This document shows, piece after piece, positions 5,706 through 15,712 of a DNA stretch of 20,303 bases. How positions within the stretch are numbered: position 1 is the first letter of the stretch; each line of letters begins with the position of its first letter. The translations under genes and the position numbers were made by a program. The notes under the pieces are model-generated. The model saw only the letters and a list, made by a program, of their open reading frames with translations. It ran no database searches and was not told the DNA's origin. This DNA comes from a virus. The stretch covers positions 1 through 20,303 of the IMG/VR virus record IMGVR_UViG_3300009786_002389, one strand, 5' to 3'.

Positions 5706-6614
5706 GTGATATCTGCTATCGTATTTTCAAAAGATAGAGCTTGCCAGTTAGATTTTTTGCTAACGAGCTTAATTCAAAAAGGCAACGAACTATTCGATAT
5801 TAGTGTTCTATACGAACATTCTAACGACTCTTTTAAAGCTGGCTATAGCAGACTGAAAGAAAAATACCCATCTTTAAATTGGGTAGAGGAAACTGATTTT
5901 CAAAAAGACACAACCGACCTTATAACAAAAGGAGGTGATCTAGTCTGTTTTTTCGTGGATGACAACATCCTGTACCGTAAAATAGAAGCTGACGAAGAAG
6001 TCATAACAAAACTTTTTGACAATAGGGACGTTTTTTGCTTGTCTTTGAGGCTCGGAGCCAATACTATTATTCAGAATGAATACGTAATGCAGGAGTGTGT
6101 TATTCCGCTAAGAGGAGAATTTGTCAACGAAACTTTTCTCGTATGGAATTGGATTGCCCAATGTGAGCATTGTAGAGCGCCCCTAACGGGCAACTATGCA
6201 TATCCCTTCTCAGTTGACGGACACATTTTTAAGAAGAGTTTAGTGGAAAAACTATTATTAGGATTTGATGAAATGGATGAACGAGGGGTTAGGGTTGTCA
6301 ATCACCCATTAGTGTTTGACACACCGAATGCTTTTGAGGGCAGGATATGGGATAAGGGATGGGAAGTAAGCGTTATGCCTAAAAAAATGTCTTCATTCCA
6401 AGAAAGCATGGTTGTTAACATTCCGCTAAATTTGGTAGGTTCTTCAGAGAATATGTCTGGTCAAAAATTTGGAGTTTCTTTGGAGGAACTCAATCAAAAA
6501 TATTTAGCAGGATCTGATCCAGACTTGGACAATATGGATTTTTCAAACGTTCAAGGATGTCATCAAGAAATTCAACTTAAATTTAAGGAGGTTGCTAATG
6601 TTAGATCTAGTTAA
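5706..6614 (+). CDS. GT-A-like glycosyltransferase, copy 1 of a paralogous pair
   Basis: The 302-residue protein starts at GTG 5706 behind AGGGGA. It begins MISAIVFSKDRACQLDFLLT, the beta-alpha start of a GT-A nucleotide-sugar fold, and has an acidic DxD-like site in CFFVDDNILYR (Asp85, Asp86). It is clearly paralogous to the gene at 17229-18083. Shared blocks include LSLRLGxNTxIQN, GEFVxxxFLVW, PFSxxGHI and LxxLNxxYL near the C-terminus. The family is not one I can name, but it resembles uncharacterised glycosyltransferase-like proteins in large phages. It is predicted cytoplasmic. The C-terminus overlaps the ribosome binding site and start of the following Cys-rich gene. Confidence 0.72.
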   Translation: MISAIVFSKDRACQLDFLLTSLIQKGNELFDISVLYEHSNDSFKAGYSRLKEKYPSLNWVEETDFQKDTTDLITKGGDLVCFFVDDNILYRKIEADEEVITKLFDNRDVFCLSLRLGANTIIQNEYVMQECVIPLRGEFVNETFLVWNWIAQCEHCRAPLTGNYAYPFSVDGHIFKKSLVEKLLLGFDEMDERGVRVVNHPLVFDTPNAFEGRIWDKGWEVSVMPKKMSSFQESMVVNIPLNLVGSSENMSGQKFGVSLEELNQKYLAGSDPDLDNMDFSNVQGCHQEIQLKFKEVANVRSS

Positions 6615-6807
6615 GAACCATTGGCTTTGTGTGCTGCTCGGTGTTGCTCTAGGTTATTCGCTTCACTGGTGTCCACTACTCGGTCATAACCATGTATGCC
6701 CCCGCGCTGGAGTGCATTCATGTGATTGTGGCGATTGCGACTGCGGTGCCGATTGCGCCTGTATAGTTGGCGAAGCTTGTGGGTGTAAGGGCTGTATGGT
6801 TAAGTAA
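6598..6807 (+). CDS. Cys-rich, membrane-anchored small protein, 69 aa
   Basis: AAGGAGG at 6585-6591 followed by six bases gives an unambiguous ATG at 6598, overlapping the end of the transferase gene. The N-terminus has one hydrophobic helix (about residues 9-22), then a cluster of cysteines. Nine lie in the stretch from SCDCGDCDCGADCAC to ACGCKGCMVK, and 12 are present overall, more than one residue in six. The CxC and CxxC spacing resembles metallothioneins and other soft-metal binding peptides, though no known family is matched. It could bind zinc, copper or iron at the membrane, or be an extracellular disulfide-rich peptide. The strong ribosome binding site argues that it is expressed. 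Confidence 0.75.
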   Translation: MLDLVKNHWLCVLLGVALGYSLHWCPLLGHNHVCPRAGVHSCDCGDCDCGADCACIVGEACGCKGCMVK

Positions 6808-8970: not shown

Positions 8971-8984
8971 TTTTGGAGGTCATT

Positions 8985-10052
8985 ATGACTGTTAGTACAC
9001 ATACAAGAACGCTAGGCATTACAGGAGCAGAAGCTACTGGAACAGTAACAATTACTGCCTATCTTAACCTAAATACAGGAGACAAGGTTAATTTAATCGC
9101 TACTGATGGAACCAATTATGATTTTGTAAACGGGGACCAAAGCTCGGTAGCTGGCACTTGGGAATCCACCGTAAGCAACGATCAAACTGCTACAAATTTA
9201 ATGAACGTCATTAACACAGGCAGTGGACCCGCTGGAACCAGATTTTCTGCATCAGTACTTGGAGCGGTTGTTACCATTACACAGAGTTCCAATAGCGAGG
9301 CTAGCCTCGAAGACGGAAACACAGCAATCACCCTCACGGATACTTTCGCTGCTGGCATGACCGCCGACAGCGCTTTTACTGGTGGAAGCTCATCGGCAGT
9401 AGTTAATGATCGCGGCGTAGTTATGCAAGGCGGAAACATTGCCGGTTCAAAATATACAAACAAGAGTATTTTGGATACCGTCAAGGGCGCAAACGAGTAC
9501 GGTTCACAGCTTGGTCTAGTTACAGGTACGTCGCACAAGGTTGGCCTTGCTGTTGTTCGTAGTGTAGGAAGTCCCAAGTTTGCCTTCTTCCCGAAGAAGA
9601 TAGATCGTACTGCTACTAACGCCACTTTCTTGGCTAGAGGTCTTCAGACGAAGATCGCTGGTGCTGCTTCAACAGAAGATATCATGGGAGTCCTCGGTCA
9701 GAACCAAGGCGCTCGCGGTACTAATCTTCATACTGATGATCACTACCAAAGAGGAAGCTGGTCTACGTTGGCATTCAACTTGTTCCGCAATCCTACCGCC
9801 GGGGATAACTCCGAAACTACCGGTCTCGTGCAAAGTGATGGAACTGCTAAGAGTGGTGCTACCAACTACGGTACTGCTGATATCTTCCGTAACTTGGCTG
9901 ACCAAGATAATGCTAGACCAGTCACGAATGTTCCAACGCGAGCCGTTCCGGGTGAGATAGTGTTCATGATTGACTTCGCCTCATGGCCGTTCTCAGCGGG
10001 TGAGCCTACTGGTGGTAACTACAAGGATTACTCAGCCATTACAGGCGGGTAA
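8985..10052 (+). CDS. Probable major virion structural protein, 355 aa
   Basis: The ATG at 8985 follows GGAGGT (8975-8980). Residues 1-11 (MTVSTHTRTLG) match the start of the next gene. Residues about 12-134 form an inserted beta-rich, Gly/Thr/Ala-rich module (KVNLIATDGTNYDFVNGD, ATNLMNVIN, VVTITQSSNSEASL, FTGG) of a type repeated in marine phage virion proteins. Residues about 141-355 are shared with the downstream protein, including DYQRGSW-like HTDDHYQRGSW, TLAFNLFRNPTAG, NYGTADIFRNLADQDNARPV and the AITGG end. A dedicated promoter, strong ribosome binding site, shared terminator and frequent C-ending Tyr, Asn and Phe codons suggest very high expression. It may be a capsid, head-decoration or tail-tube-type protein; I cannot tell which. 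Confidence 0.72.
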   Translation: MTVSTHTRTLGITGAEATGTVTITAYLNLNTGDKVNLIATDGTNYDFVNGDQSSVAGTWESTVSNDQTATNLMNVINTGSGPAGTRFSASVLGAVVTITQSSNSEASLEDGNTAITLTDTFAAGMTADSAFTGGSSSAVVNDRGVVMQGGNIAGSKYTNKSILDTVKGANEYGSQLGLVTGTSHKVGLAVVRSVGSPKFAFFPKKIDRTATNATFLARGLQTKIAGAASTEDIMGVLGQNQGARGTNLHTDDHYQRGSWSTLAFNLFRNPTAGDNSETTGLVQSDGTAKSGATNYGTADIFRNLADQDNARPVTNVPTRAVPGEIVFMIDFASWPFSAGEPTGGNYKDYSAITGG

Positions 10053-10763
10053 TCTTTACTATATATAAGGAGGTTTATTATGACTGTTAGCACACACGTT
10101 GGAGCAGCTAAGGCTGCTGGTGGTGGTAAAGATAACGACGGCGGCACCATTCTCGCCGCTGGTAATGTCGGTAGTTCAAGATGGGCAAGCAAAAGCAGTT
10201 TGGAGATTGTCAAGGGTGCAGAAGATTACGGCTCAAAGCTTGGTATATCTACAGGTACAAGATACGTCGTCGGTCTTGCCGCTGCGCGTAGCTTGAATAG
10301 TCCCAAGTTTGGCTTTACTCCTAAGAGGGCAGATCGTTCTGCCACCAACTCTACCTTTATGATCAAAGGAGCTTCGACAAAGCTAGCTGACATTACTTCC
10401 TCGGAAGATATTCTGGGGCTTCTTGGAAGCGATCATAGTGTTCGAAGTGCTCATCTTCATACCGATGATCATTACCAGAGAGGCTCTTGGGCTACCTTGG
10501 CCTTTAACCTCTTTAAAAACCCGACTGCTGGTTCTACCAGTAACCACGGCCTTGTCCAGAGCGATCTTACGGATAAGAGCGGCGCTACCAATTATGGTAC
10601 TGCTGCCATCTTCCGCAATATTGCCGATCAGGACAATGCCAGACCGGTTACAAACGTTCCCTCAAGAGCGGTTCCGGGTGAATTGGTATTCTTGGTTGAT
10701 TTCGTTACTCGCACAACGAGTGGTGGAAACTTCCAAGATTATAGCGCTATTACAGGCGGTTAA
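9405..10763 (+). repeat. Diverged tandem gene duplication
   Basis: About 215 codons at 9405-10049 match about 211 codons at 10128-10760 at the protein level, and the first six codons of each gene are also nearly the same. Runs such as SGATNYGTA, DQDNARPVTNVP and LHTDDHYQRGSW are identical or nearly so. The DNA has diverged at third positions, so the duplication is not recent. Confidence 0.9.
10080..10763 (+). CDS. Probable virion structural protein, shorter paralogue, 227 aa
   Basis: AAGGAGGT at 10067-10074 precedes the ATG. The protein opens MTVSTHVGAAKAAGGGKDND and lacks the inserted beta module of the upstream copy. From residue 17 it aligns with that copy to the end (SSLEIVKGAEDYGSKLG, SPKFGFTPKRADRSATNSTF, DNARPVTNVPSRAVPGEL, YSAITGG). 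The pair shares one transcription unit that ends at the terminator after this gene. The two proteins could co-assemble, like a basic subunit and a longer subunit that exposes an extra surface domain. No enzyme motif or membrane segment is seen. Confidence 0.72.
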   Translation: MTVSTHVGAAKAAGGGKDNDGGTILAAGNVGSSRWASKSSLEIVKGAEDYGSKLGISTGTRYVVGLAAARSLNSPKFGFTPKRADRSATNSTFMIKGASTKLADITSSEDILGLLGSDHSVRSAHLHTDDHYQRGSWATLAFNLFKNPTAGSTSNHGLVQSDLTDKSGATNYGTAAIFRNIADQDNARPVTNVPSRAVPGELVFLVDFVTRTTSGGNFQDYSAITGG

Positions 10764-11159: not shown

Positions 11160-11801
11160 ATGATATACGTTCCCTATTCCGATGCCGTTAAACAACGCTT
11201 GATTCATGAAGCGGATGTCTTGCTTTTTAGAGGCGACGGTATAAGCAGTTGGCTTATCAAAAGGTATGGGGGCGGCGTACATAGTCACGCCGGGATGGCT
11301 CATTGGGACGGTAAGAATTTAGAGTGTGTCGAATTCAGAGAGTTCAAAGGCGGAAGGGCTGTTTCCCTGAAGTCTCAAGTTGAGACACATCCAGACAATA
11401 TAGATGTTTTTAGACCCGCTAAGCTTGTACAGCATAGTAAGTTTGACACTTGGTCTGAAAACGAACATAGGACATCTGGTTATAGACAAGATGACGATCA
11501 TAGGATAATTGATCCAAATAAAATTACTGACGCTATGTTAGAACTAACCGGCCTGCCGTATGGGTGGAAAAATATTTGGAAACTAGCGAAACATTATCTG
11601 CCTTTTTGCAGGCTGGCTCCACAAAACATGAAGGACGATGATCCTATGAATGTTTTCGTGTGCAGTACCGCTGTTGCTTTCGCTTACAGAAAAGGCTATA
11701 TAGATCCTGTACCATACCTAGCAGATTCGGCTGTTATGCCCGCTGACTTAGCTAGATCAGCACTCTTTAAATATCAATTCACCATCAGTAAGGACTGGTA
11801 A
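11160..11801 (+). CDS. YiiX/NlpC-P60-like permuted papain-fold hydrolase
   Basis: The 213-residue protein fits the circularly permuted papain-like group (YaeF/YiiX, C92). The N-terminal block is DVLLFRGDGISSWLIKRYGG, followed by HSHAGMAHWDG with the candidate catalytic His43. The catalytic cysteine comes late, Cys168 in FVCSTAVAFAYRKGY, as expected after permutation. GLPYGWKNIW (131-140) matches the Tyr-x-Trp segment common to NlpC/P60 folds. It has no signal peptide. Family members are proposed to cleave peptide or lipid amide bonds; the substrate here is unknown. Position between small membrane proteins and exported proteases makes a role at the cell envelope plausible. The start ATG has only a weak ribosome binding site. 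Confidence 0.8.
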   Translation: MIYVPYSDAVKQRLIHEADVLLFRGDGISSWLIKRYGGGVHSHAGMAHWDGKNLECVEFREFKGGRAVSLKSQVETHPDNIDVFRPAKLVQHSKFDTWSENEHRTSGYRQDDDHRIIDPNKITDAMLELTGLPYGWKNIWKLAKHYLPFCRLAPQNMKDDDPMNVFVCSTAVAFAYRKGYIDPVPYLADSAVMPADLARSALFKYQFTISKDW

Positions 11802-11806
11802 AGGTC

Positions 11807-13870
11807 ATGAAAAAACTAATTCAAGCTATGATAGTTTTGGCACTAATGACGCTCTTCCCAGCTTTAGGGTTTGCCCAACCGCTTACGATGGACGAGGCTT
11901 TGGAAGGAGTATGTAGGGTTAGTACATCTGGAGCGAGAGGCTCTGGTACGGTATTTTCAGAAGATGAAGAAAAATACTACATACTAACTAACGGTCATGT
12001 AATCGAAAGAGCCAGAAGAGGTCACCTAGAGTTCTTTCAAGATGGCTACAAGTCTGCTATGATTCCCTTTAGAACAGAATATTCTGAATATAAAGAGGGT
12101 ACTGCGTTAGACTTAGCTGTTGTGTCCGTAGAAAAGAAATATTTTGGACGATTCCCTCCTAGGGTAATTCCTCTAGCTCCGAAGGGAACAGAGATAAAGG
12201 CTAATGATCTAGTGATGGCTGGAGGATGCCCCTCTGCTCAATGGGCTACCTCTTGGAAAGGTAGGGTTCTTAGGAACGCAGGGGCTGTTATCAGTTTCAA
12301 TGCTGCCCCTATTGGCGGTCAGTCTGGAAGTGGCGTTCTGGTTCTTATCAAGGATGACAAAGGAGAGCTTCATACTCGTCTCGGCATTCTTCTCGCTTGG
12401 AGAATAGGAGATGGTGCATGGACAGACGATGGGCCAAATGACTACGGCGCTGGCCTATCCTTAAGACAGATCTATGAGATAATGGAAGGCAATGGCCAAG
12501 GCCATCCTATCGAAGCTTCTTATAGCATTGTTGTCGATAAAGAGACCAAGCCCAACAAGCCAGAGCGTCTTACTAAGATCTGTCCACATTGCGATCATAA
12601 AATTGAAGACCATATCGTCATCCCCTACAAGGGAGGCCTTAGAAAGACTGTCAATGGTGAGTTTATGTTTTGCCCTGAGATTAAACTTCCAGATGGTAGT
12701 ATCACTGATACTGCTCAATACTACGGAGGCATAAGGGTTGGCGAACTATACGAAGGCAGCGGATTGTTTCCTTGGTGTCCATTTGGTAGCCCTTCTCCTC
12801 CCAATCGACCACCTCAATTGCCTCCCTCCAATCCAAATCCGCCAAACGATGGAGGAAACGGTGGCGGATGGAACGGTTGGCCCGGTAGACCAAATCCCGA
12901 TGGACCCGTTGATCCTCCTATAGGCGATTTTGAAAAGGAGCGTCAGGAATATCTTAATAAGATTACAGAACTACAGGAAAAATTTACCAATCTTGAAAAG
13001 ATATCCGATAGCGTTCAAGCTGAACTACAAACAAAACTAAATAGTCTGGAATCTCTGTCCGAAAGTCTTAAAGCGGAGCTTGGTGGAACAAACAGTAATC
13101 TTTTAGAAGCTCAAAATGCAGTCAACGGCCTGAGAGATCTCTTGGGGGCTGTTGAGGGACAAAAAGATTCACTAAAGACTAAAATAGACGACCTCATGGG
13201 GGTTATCGGCACAAAGGATGGTCATATATCACAACTGGAGACTAACGGTAGTCATTACATGGATGGCGCTACCGGTGGTAACGGAAACACTGTAGAAAAC
13301 GTCAGCTTTACACTTGGGGGGATGAGCTTGGGAATGCTGGCCTTAAAATACGGAGTTCCGTTCTTGCTGGGACGAAGAAGAAAAAGAAAAAATGGAAAAA
13401 ATATTGACAAAGGTGATGAAGAGGAGTATGATAATGACACAAGACCACCCACGCCACCTCCCGTCGAAAAAGAAGGTTGTGACGGCGATGGTTCTTGCAC
13501 ACATGTTCATGAACACGTTCACAAACATCGTCACGAAAACGAGTATGTCATGCCCTTAGACGGTCTGCCAGAGCATGTTGCCACAGAGAATGTTGAAGAC
13601 AGGACTGGCAAGCACGGACTGAATCCGCAGTTTATCCCTTACGGATTTCCTGCAAGCGAACCTTATCATCAACAACCAATTGCTATGCAAGGATTGCCAC
13701 CGCAATTTTTGAATGTACCGTTCAGCACGCGAAAACAAGCTACTGCTGAACAGATCATGACGGTGTTCGGAGAACTAGTCAACGAATATCAAAACGATCA
13801 AACAATGACGATGAGTCAGGTTGATACATTGGTACGTCATAGACTTAAGCAGAAATTTAACTTAGAGTAA
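11807..13870 (+). CDS. Sec-exported trypsin-like protease with coiled coil, membrane helix and His-rich tail
   Basis: This 687-residue multi-domain protein has a Sec signal at residues 1-23 (cleavage after GFA). A trypsin/DegP-like domain spans about 30-225, with a triad of His64 (ILTNGHVIE), Asp102 (TALDLAVV) and Ser173 (GGQSGSG). A small cysteine site follows (Cys259, Cys262, Cys289, Cys324). Next are a Pro/Gly linker (about 326-372), a coiled coil (about 374-475) and a membrane helix (about 503-522) followed by RRRKRK. The positive cluster after the helix places the protease outside and the tail inside. The tail holds CTHVHEHVHKHRHENE (564-579) with six alternating histidines, a likely metal site. 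The C-terminal 90 residues are unrecognised. No frameshift is seen. I know no named family with this full layout. Confidence 0.82.
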   Translation: MKKLIQAMIVLALMTLFPALGFAQPLTMDEALEGVCRVSTSGARGSGTVFSEDEEKYYILTNGHVIERARRGHLEFFQDGYKSAMIPFRTEYSEYKEGTALDLAVVSVEKKYFGRFPPRVIPLAPKGTEIKANDLVMAGGCPSAQWATSWKGRVLRNAGAVISFNAAPIGGQSGSGVLVLIKDDKGELHTRLGILLAWRIGDGAWTDDGPNDYGAGLSLRQIYEIMEGNGQGHPIEASYSIVVDKETKPNKPERLTKICPHCDHKIEDHIVIPYKGGLRKTVNGEFMFCPEIKLPDGSITDTAQYYGGIRVGELYEGSGLFPWCPFGSPSPPNRPPQLPPSNPNPPNDGGNGGGWNGWPGRPNPDGPVDPPIGDFEKERQEYLNKITELQEKFTNLEKISDSVQAELQTKLNSLESLSESLKAELGGTNSNLLEAQNAVNGLRDLLGAVEGQKDSLKTKIDDLMGVIGTKDGHISQLETNGSHYMDGATGGNGNTVENVSFTLGGMSLGMLALKYGVPFLLGRRRKRKNGKNIDKGDEEEYDNDTRPPTPPPVEKEGCDGDGSCTHVHEHVHKHRHENEYVMPLDGLPEHVATENVEDRTGKHGLNPQFIPYGFPASEPYHQQPIAMQGLPPQFLNVPFSTRKQATAEQIMTVFGELVNEYQNDQTMTMSQVDTLVRHRLKQKFNLE

Positions 13871-13882
13871 CCGGAGGCAAAA

Positions 13883-14683
13883 ATGTCAGATCATGCAAAT
13901 GAAAGCTTAGTTATCCCAACCCACGACGCAATACTTCCTTATATGTTTGAGGGGGTGAAGTGGGCTATTCCTAATGTTGGCGACAACAAGGAAACTCATA
14001 ATATGGCAATTGCCCGCCTGTTTGAAAAGGTTGGCGAGCACCTACAAGCATTTTCAGTACGTACTGATTGCTTTGTTCCCGGTCCTCCAACACTGGCGGC
14101 TGTCAAGCAGCATCACAACATGTTTGTTCGTTTGTGCAACCTGATTGATACAAATACGAAGCCAGACAACATGGAAAGACTTGAAGCTCATCATATCACA
14201 CATGAGAGACGGGCATTCAAGATTTATCCGATTCGCTACTTTGATGTCAAGAATGACTACTGCCGTCGATGGATTGAACTTGGTCTTCAGGGCTTGAGTG
14301 ATATGGCTCAGCTTTCTGAGAATACTTGGGCCAATGACTGGAGTGTTCAGACTGGCAAAGAGATGAAAAAGCTTTTCCGTGAAGCTTATCGTCTCATGGT
14401 TGTTGAGTTGTTCAGGATTCCGGTTATAGAAGCTCACGGTGTATTCGATGATGAAGATCCGTACTTCTTAGCCCCAGAACTATTCGCCAACTATGATGTT
14501 AGTCATATTCCAACCATCGAATGGATCAAGCATCCTGCCCTTGGTAGTGAATTCACAGAGGATGAGCTTCGCTCAATCTCAACTCCTAATATTCCAGTAG
14601 CACCCGGCGTTGCGGAGAACGAAGGCAATACGCCCCAGCGTGAGCTAGAGCGTAGAATGCAGGGCGGCGGTGAGACTGTTTAA
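13883..14683 (+). CDS. Hypothetical protein, 266 aa
   Basis: GGAGG at 13873-13877 sets the ATG. The protein is soluble, mostly helical and rich in His and Trp (KQHHNMFVRLCNLIDTNT, EAHHITHERRAFKIYPIRYF, ENTWANDWSVQTGKEMKKLF). The C-terminal 40 residues are Pro- and Glu-rich and probably disordered. I recognise no family. A terminator-like hairpin follows, so it ends a transcription unit begun after the terminator at 10783. C-ending codons are fairly frequent, as in the virion genes, hinting at good expression. It may be a virion or tail protein, but nothing proves it. Confidence 0.75.
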   Translation: MSDHANESLVIPTHDAILPYMFEGVKWAIPNVGDNKETHNMAIARLFEKVGEHLQAFSVRTDCFVPGPPTLAAVKQHHNMFVRLCNLIDTNTKPDNMERLEAHHITHERRAFKIYPIRYFDVKNDYCRRWIELGLQGLSDMAQLSENTWANDWSVQTGKEMKKLFREAYRLMVVELFRIPVIEAHGVFDDEDPYFLAPELFANYDVSHIPTIEWIKHPALGSEFTEDELRSISTPNIPVAPGVAENEGNTPQRELERRMQGGGETV

Positions 14684-14730: not shown

Positions 14731-14758
14731 CTATTACATGACACTGAGGAAGGAATCG

Positions 14759-15712
14759 ATGAAAAAATCAATCTTGAGTTCTGTTCTACTGCTCCTGCTA
14801 TTCTCCTCGCCCACCAATGGTGAAGACCGCGAGGACTCAGAGTTGGTCTCTAAAAGACTGTATCAACATCTACAGGATGTTTCTGTTACAGTAAAATCCG
14901 GCTCTGGAGAAGGTTCTGGCGTCATTGTTACGCGAACCATCCCCGTTGCTCAAGCTAAGGGAAAACCTCTTGCGGTAAAGGTAAACTTTGTATGGACCGC
15001 TGCACATGTTGTAGACGGTCTTCGTTCCGTTAGGACTATAATTAAAGACGGGCAATCAACCAAGGTTGTAGAATTTAAGGACGCTCAGGTCGTCCAAGAA
15101 TTGGTCGAGGATGGCCGTCGTGTTGGCGAGATGAAGATGGAAGCCAAGGTTATTAAATATAGCGACTCCGAAAACGGGGAAGATTTAGCTCTCCTAATGA
15201 TTAGAAAGAAGGGTTATATCGACAAGTCGGTCACGTTCTATCAGGGTGAAGGCAGGCCTGTCGCTATTGGTACAGAGCTATACCATGTTGGCTCATTACT
15301 AGGCCAAACTGGCTCGAATTCTATGACGAGAGGAATTTGTTCTCAGGTCGGAAGAGTTCTTGACTTAGGGTCAGGTGATGGTGTAGTATTTGATCAGACG
15401 ACTGTTACAGCTTTCCCCGGTTCGAGTGGCGGGGGAGTTTTTCTCAGCGAGAGGTCTGGCGACAACGCTGGGCAATACATGGGAATGCTTGTGCGTGGGG
15501 CGGGAGAAACTTTTAACCTTATCGTTCCAGTTCGTAGAATGCGAGACTATGCCAAAAGAGAAGGTATCCTATGGGCTATCGACTCGAACCATCCTGTTCC
15601 CACCCTGAAAGAGATCACGAATATATCAATCGAAGGCGGAACATCAAAGAGTAAGGCCGGAAAGAGTGTCTTGACTAAAGACAGCATCAAGTTTCCCACG
15701 TTCCTTAAATAA
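14759..15712 (+). CDS. Sec-exported trypsin-like serine protease, 317 aa
   Basis: The start at 14759 follows GAGGAAGGA (14746-14754). An upstream in-frame ATG at 14738 would put a charged stretch before the signal peptide. The first 20 residues (MKKSILSSVLLLLLFSSPTN) are a clear Sec signal. The trypsin-like domain has His83 in WTAAHVVDG, Asp142 in NGEDLALLM and Ser223 in FPGSSGGGVF, a complete triad. A DegP-like PDZ domain is not visible; after the domain comes a short basic tail. It should act outside the cytoplasm. It is a separate, smaller protease from the one at 11807 and shares only the fold. It begins after a terminator-like hairpin and starts a run leading into the thioredoxin and sugar genes. 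Confidence 0.85.
   Translation: MKKSILSSVLLLLLFSSPTNGEDREDSELVSKRLYQHLQDVSVTVKSGSGEGSGVIVTRTIPVAQAKGKPLAVKVNFVWTAAHVVDGLRSVRTIIKDGQSTKVVEFKDAQVVQELVEDGRRVGEMKMEAKVIKYSDSENGEDLALLMIRKKGYIDKSVTFYQGEGRPVAIGTELYHVGSLLGQTGSNSMTRGICSQVGRVLDLGSGDGVVFDQTTVTAFPGSSGGGVFLSERSGDNAGQYMGMLVRGAGETFNLIVPVRRMRDYAKREGILWAIDSNHPVPTLKEITNISIEGGTSKSKAGKSVLTKDSIKFPTFLK

Follow-up and report, generated by a model that had tools for sequence, protein, structure and literature searches.

A phage gene for a predicted exported and membrane-anchored trypsin/HtrA-like protease with a conserved histidine-rich cytoplasmic end

What would a phage do with a single polypeptide that appears to place a protease outside the host inner membrane and a histidine-rich tail inside the cell? 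This question is raised by the virus record IMGVR_UViG_3300009786_002389, whose whole stretch of 20,303 nucleotides, analyzed here, is called the window. A preliminary description of this DNA proposed that one frame, hereafter the focal gene, joins an exported protease, a four-cysteine site, a coiled coil, a membrane helix and a tail of alternating histidines. The layout was likened to a spanin-like tether and was not known from any described phage protein. The features that carry the argument are collected in Table 1.

Table 1. Features of the focal gene and of its neighbors in the window
Feature	Residues	Position	Strand	Basis
Small membrane protein, conserved K and E in membrane segment		10838..11158	+	tblastn, 21 relatives
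Cysteine peptidase-like gene, 3kw0 relative, without signal peptide		11160..11801	+	PDB profile match, E 2.3e-4
Focal gene	1-687 (687 aa)	11807..13870	+	uninterrupted frame, ATG 11807 to TAA 13870; full-length relatives
Signal peptide	1-23	11807..11875	+	hydrophobic peak KD19 2.15; A23 invariant (22 relatives)
Trypsin/HtrA-like protease domain (predicted)	24-240	11876..12526	+	Pfam Trypsin_2, invariant triad, DegS/HtrA-like model
Triad codons	H64, D102, S173	11996-11998, 12110-12112, 12323-12325	+	invariant, 22 relatives
Cysteine region (C259, C262, C289, C324, H269)	241-330	12527..12796	+	invariant in 22; model mostly locally confident
Pro/Gly-rich linker	331-372	12797..12922	+	sequence; length varies among relatives
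Coiled coil	373-482	12923..13252	+	hydrophobicity period 3.50; predicted helices
Juxtamembrane motif HYMDGATGGNGNTVEN	483-498	13253..13300	+	pN/pS 0.13, lowest segment
Putative membrane segment with GG	499-522	13301..13372	+	marginal hydropathy; near-invariant; sub-cut-off GlyGly-CTERM match in relatives
Basic cluster	523-533	13373..13405	+	sequence; R523, R524 invariant
His tail CTHVHEHVHKHRHEN	564-578	13496..13540	+	4-8 alternating His in 22/22 relatives
Conserved C-terminal helical module	626-687	13682..13867	+	pN/pS 0.21; predicted helices
13883 gene, function unassigned		13883..14683	+	85% mean column identity; contig set is that of the focal gene
Second exported trypsin-like protease, intact triad		14738..15712	+	Pfam E 1.9e-10; triad 20/20

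The focal gene and its relatives

The focal gene starts 5 bases past the stop codon of the upstream gene and runs as one intact frame. A first scan of IMG/VR found relatives on 21 contigs, 17 of which span residues 1-687, with unbroken frames of 656-701 aa and an identical order of parts. A profile scan of the same collection found them on 30 contigs, many from different metagenomes and up to 161 kb long, at 59-100% identity; scans with the C-terminal module alone and with the membrane segment alone returned 36 and 35 contigs, respectively, mostly the identical set. All these scans were seeded by short exact patterns and a wider family may exist.

Because about 30 independent contigs encode the same order of parts, the focal gene is not an assembly fusion. 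The preliminary description had named the joining of two genes by an assembly error as a finding that would overturn it; the junctions are identical in contigs spanning the whole range of identity, conserved parts flank every one of them and nothing was found in favor of an assembly or annotation artefact, whose probability is practically negligible. The single polypeptide is confirmed, and relatives with an identical order of parts, which the description had called for, exist.

The novelty of the architecture was likewise supported, as no match to the focal protein was found in 50,697 records of cultured phages. Relatives were also absent from the genome contigs database, scanned like the cultured phages from short exact patterns, and from 7 PVC genomes, and this architecture was not encountered in the literature on phage-encoded exported serine proteases and planctomycete phages. 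An exported, anchored protease with a conserved cytoplasmic end would thus be new with respect to all cultured-phage records searched.

Every named part of the protein except the linkers appears to be under purifying selection. The pN/pS ratios, which are merely relative since synonymous sites are near saturation, are lowest in the juxtamembrane stretch (0.13), followed by the membrane segment (0.16), the protease (0.17), the C-terminal module (0.21), and the His tail and coiled coil (0.27 each); linker 534-563 is the least constrained (0.74).

The predicted exported part

Residue invariance was read from an alignment of 22 relatives. Pfam Trypsin_2 matches residues 45-178 at 36 bits (curated cut-off 27.6; E 1.4e-8), S173 sits in a GGQSGSG motif and the complete triad is fixed in 22/22 relatives, which upholds the reading of this part as an exported protease. 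The four-cysteine site is equally constant and, with C36 and C141 inside the protease, which are also invariant, brings the exported cysteines to six. No PDZ domain was detected by Pfam down to E 0.1, and the protein falls far below the cut-off of the full-length HtrA models of NCBIfam.

An AlphaFold2 model of residues 24-330 built from 21 relatives has a pLDDT of 48, with local confidence confined to an N-terminal barrel and the greater part of the cysteine region (block means of about 69-86 in the latter, with one block at 53). The structures nearest to this weak model are DegS, DegQ and HtrA2 (Foldseek E 1.4e-5); VIA-align gave Z scores up to 9.8 across 71-118 residues, and the matches to solved structures cover mainly residues 1-172 of the model rather than its cysteine region. 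The full-length model (13 relatives, pLDDT 35) is usable for helices only. Compared with the PDB, the whole-protein profile matched just coiled coils, membrane segments and, weakly, stretches of DO proteases, and BFVD returned for the most part viral serine proteases of a generic kind. Among 294 Planctomycetota genomes, nothing stronger than weak matches of the protease profile to ordinary trypsin/HtrA-type proteins came up. Judged from its sequence, the focal protein is a predicted protease of trypsin/HtrA type.

Coiled coil, membrane segment and cytoplasmic end

The hydrophobicity of residues 375-480 has a period of 3.50, a value matched by 1 in 1000 shuffles, and both the coiled coil and the basic stop-transfer of the preliminary description hold, the latter through its two invariant arginines. 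The window copy and relatives L004 and L018 have 18 additional residues in the coiled coil, an insert that looks by eye like an internal duplication. Most positions are fixed among the 22 relatives in the near-invariant stretch HY.D..TGGNGN.VENV...LGG.S.G.LALKYGVP.

The membrane helix, on which the preliminary description had itself staked its validity, proved borderline. Beyond the signal peptide, segment 503-521 is the sole candidate in the protein and its octanol sum of -3.2 favors the membrane. Its Kyte-Doolittle value (1.38 vs the usual 1.6) and its approximate position-dependent insertion energy (+2.6 kcal with a simplified function) are marginal. The predicted topology, with a signal peptide upstream of this marginal segment and Arg/Lys residues downstream, fits a type I anchor. 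Residues G505, G509, A512 and G516 would share one invariant helical face, as in packed membrane helices, and K514, with seven residues left before the segment ends, may extend as far as the inner surface.

The predicted cytoplasmic His-rich tail was also recovered, since the alternating run is present in all 22 relatives. The window copy has six histidines; the six sites use both CAT and CAC, and at four of them no row of the 22 departs from His. Alternating histidines under apparent purifying selection, in varying number, suit a metal-binding or an oligomerising tail and prove neither. Two elements had escaped the preliminary description, the variable linker 534-563 and the conserved C-terminal module, in which helices are predicted at 647-660 and 669-684 (pLDDT 60-74). 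Small secreted-looking His-rich proteins with HWHSHPH or HSHLHNHIHHH motifs are encoded in distant relatives (L305:6717-7061, L313:3847-4191 and L316:2616-2951).

Gene neighborhood

The focal gene keeps constant company. The order of the focal gene, the 13883 gene and the second protease gene is maintained in 24/24 loci, and the 11160 gene, whose profile matches the solved cysteine peptidase 3kw0, precedes the focal gene in 23 of these, the exception (L029) beginning at the focal gene. The small membrane protein, whose C-terminus is predicted by charge to be cytoplasmic, was found in 21 of 22 loci, the remaining one (L036) beginning within the 11160 gene. The 13883 gene occurs on 36 contigs, within the set of the focal gene; it had been guessed by eye to encode a globin, and, as a PDB profile search gave a weak lactoferrin stretch only, this guess was given up.

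The second protease is commoner (117 contigs). Among its 42 most distant loci (L279-L320), the focal gene is found in five and is missing from the available sequence of the rest, which is short for many. In L298, the sigma-factor, 8973-like, 10838-like and 14738 genes adjoin directly; the 11160, 11807 and 13883 genes therefore constitute a lineage-specific block, since they are missing there between the same flanks. Many relatives carrying the second protease lack the focal gene in the sequence examined, so the wider phage group can do without it.

Other genes of these loci deserve mention. In many loci, the focal gene is preceded at a distance of a few genes by a sigma-factor gene, which is absent from view in several. 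Its position is occupied by a gene of cluster c31 (about 214 aa) in L010 (2530-3174) and five other loci, where no sigma-factor gene is seen; L045 has both. Positions 8973-10052 and 10080-10763 of the window encode tandem paralogues without family match, the first with an inserted domain, which occur in one or two very diverse copies among relatives. A small Cys-rich protein with one hydrophobic segment (6592-6807; HWCPLLGHNHVCPRAG...CDCGDCDCGADCACIVGEACGCKGC) has relatives in 14 loci and looks metal-binding. Large genes with a VDLHTHSSLK or VDLHSHPSLK motif, possibly metallo-hydrolases, lie near the second protease in phages devoid of the three-gene block (L279:2261-3649 and L298:7360-8625).

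Phage and host

The carriers of the focal gene are an uncultured marine phage group. Among the genes of the 161-kb relative are a replication set like that of DNA polymerase III and RIIA/RIIB, and its terminase, tail genes and recognized structural genes all lie away from the focal locus. No peptidoglycan endolysin family was among the matches of its complete family lists; two further lists covered 25 of 50 and 25 of 37 entries. At 11191-12316 of this relative (L050), upstream of its terminase, a MotA/TolQ/ExbB Pfam match (E 8e-8) fits an ORF at 11191-11736 with two hydrophobic segments; the next ORF has one, and by eye the two may form a phage proton-driven motor pair.

The host is probably a member of the Planctomycetota, an assignment that rests on one kind of acquired gene. 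The window carries a DUF1501 gene (287-1525) with a twin-arginine-like start and up to 50% identity to Planctomycetota proteins, and the phage copies group in a DUF1501 tree as the sister of a set of 17 sequences from Planctomycetota and one from Verrucomicrobiota, on a branch supported at 100/100. Further DUF1501-like genes were noticed by eye in the distant relatives L305, L310 and L317.

Proposed function and alternatives

One gene with a conserved order of parts, an intact triad and constant company is the basis for a functional reading, together with a predicted export and topology. We tentatively favor a phage type I membrane protease that would cut host envelope proteins during infection. 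The signal peptide would export the trypsin/HtrA-like serine protease across the host inner membrane to its outer face, where disulfides or metal would stabilize the cysteine region, and the Pro/Gly hinge and coiled coil would probably carry several protease heads on a stalk, if the protein oligomerises. One segment rich in small residues would anchor the protein, and the His-rich stretch and helical module on the cytoplasmic side would probably bind a partner of phage or host origin or adjust assembly. The focal protease would probably work with the second exported protease, presumably late in infection, and the cleavage of host envelope proteins would weaken or remodel the envelope for phage release. 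Of the functions considered, envelope proteolysis has the most support, since predicted export and a second exported protease point to substrates beyond the inner membrane. That second protease is close by in 24/24 loci, and the cysteine peptidase-like gene, the sigma-factor gene upstream in many loci and the lack of endolysin families in the complete lists of the 161-kb relative also speak for this reading. The marginal membrane segment, the many relatives with the second protease but no focal gene, and a host assignment resting on one kind of gene speak against it. Planctomycetes were long assumed to have a proteinaceous wall, yet peptidoglycan is present (PMC4432640), and a protease alone should therefore not suffice for lysis. 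Should envelope proteolysis prove true, it would show how likely Planctomycetota phages may handle the host envelope. Phages of this phylum have hardly been studied, and the locus provides two conserved proteases, both with an intact triad, on which tests could be run.

The same predicted export and anchoring would also serve superinfection exclusion or the shaving of receptors: held at the inner membrane, the protease would cut receptors or incoming ejection proteins there and thereby shield the infected cell rather than aid release. An accessory competition gene would be expected to show just this confinement to one lineage, narrower than the spread of the second protease, but known phage exclusion gene families gave no match; although no result tells this reading apart from proteolysis for release, we consider it rather unlikely. 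A role in the virion, or as an ejected protein acting during entry, could be suggested by the proximity of the 8973/10080 family, which could be structural, and by a match of the coiled coil to a tape-measure family (E 1e-4). This match is confined to the coiled coil, however, the signal peptide is retained in all complete relatives and the terminase and recognized structural genes of the 161-kb relative are elsewhere, so that such a role appears very improbable. Still more remote is an anti-sigma style of transmembrane signaling from the cytoplasmic module to the neighboring sigma factor: the sigma-factor gene of many loci would suit it, but that gene is not seen at all loci of the focal gene and is replaced by c31 in several.

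The membrane segment itself raises another alternative, namely that its GG-rich sequence is cut by a host rhomboid or rhombosortase, freeing the protease to be displayed at the surface or secreted, which we hold to be quite unlikely; the His-tailed fragment may also be freed into the cytoplasm. A variant, in which an internal rhombosortase-type site would send the protease outward while the cytoplasmic His-tailed fragment acts as a reporter of the envelope or of metal, is judged decidedly unlikely. Signal peptide, protease, GG, short hydrophobic segment and Arg/Lys cluster follow each other in the order of GlyGly-CTERM proteins and, by hydropathy and charge, the protein has a signal peptide, a sole membrane segment, GG outside and a basic cluster inside. 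Secreted proteases of trypsin type, VesB among them, belong to the GlyGly-CTERM proteins (PMC3237569; PMC6219818), and the domain is reported from Rhodopirellula baltica, oriented in the same way and with a core rich in Leu, Gly and Ala (PMC3237569). Two of the five segments compared with TIGR03501 match the entire model, at 14.7 bits (L045) and 13.1 bits (L014), both under the cut-off of 15.5; none of 10 shuffled cores matches this model, but one of them reached 14.0 bits with a different sorting model, so that the scores are within the noise of such models. The window copy had no match and a record-level search with TIGR03501 found none. A rhombosortase scores above cut-off in 18 of 199 sampled Planctomycetota genomes, while no rhomboid gene was found in the 13 phage records searched. 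GlyGly-CTERM is moreover defined at the extreme C-terminus, and about 165 residues follow the focal segment. Only the GG order is specific, which makes GlyGly-CTERM a lead and not a membership. If the segment were a rhomboid substrate, phage infection would be tied to host intramembrane proteolysis.

Comparison with known systems

In inner-membrane spanins, the membrane segment lies near the N-terminus and is followed by a coiled coil outside, and the outer subunit is a lipoprotein. The focal protein also has a coiled coil adjoining a membrane segment, but its anchor follows the coiled coil, its orientation is opposite, it bears an enzyme and it has no lipobox, as Cys is missing from the signal cleavage site among the 22 relatives; the likeness to a spanin-like tether was thus abandoned. 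The HtrA/DegS proteins are closer by their exported trypsin-like core and triad, DegS, DegQ and HtrA2 being the nearest structures to a model of pLDDT 48, and DegS, too, is held in the inner membrane by an anchor. The focal protein differs in the lack of a detected PDZ domain, in its additional cysteine region and coiled coil, and in an anchor placed C-terminal to the protease and followed by the His-rich tail and helical module. The second Trypsin_2 protease of the locus, likewise exported and with an intact triad, is a distant kin (hhalign probability 87, E 4.5e-6) that lacks coiled coil, anchor and tail. Although the focal segment is internal, scores under the TIGR03501 cut-off and precedes about 165 cytoplasmic residues of conserved order, the focal protein shares with Vibrio cholerae VesB the succession of signal peptide, trypsin-like protease, GG, hydrophobic segment and basic cluster, in the same order and orientation (PMC6219818).
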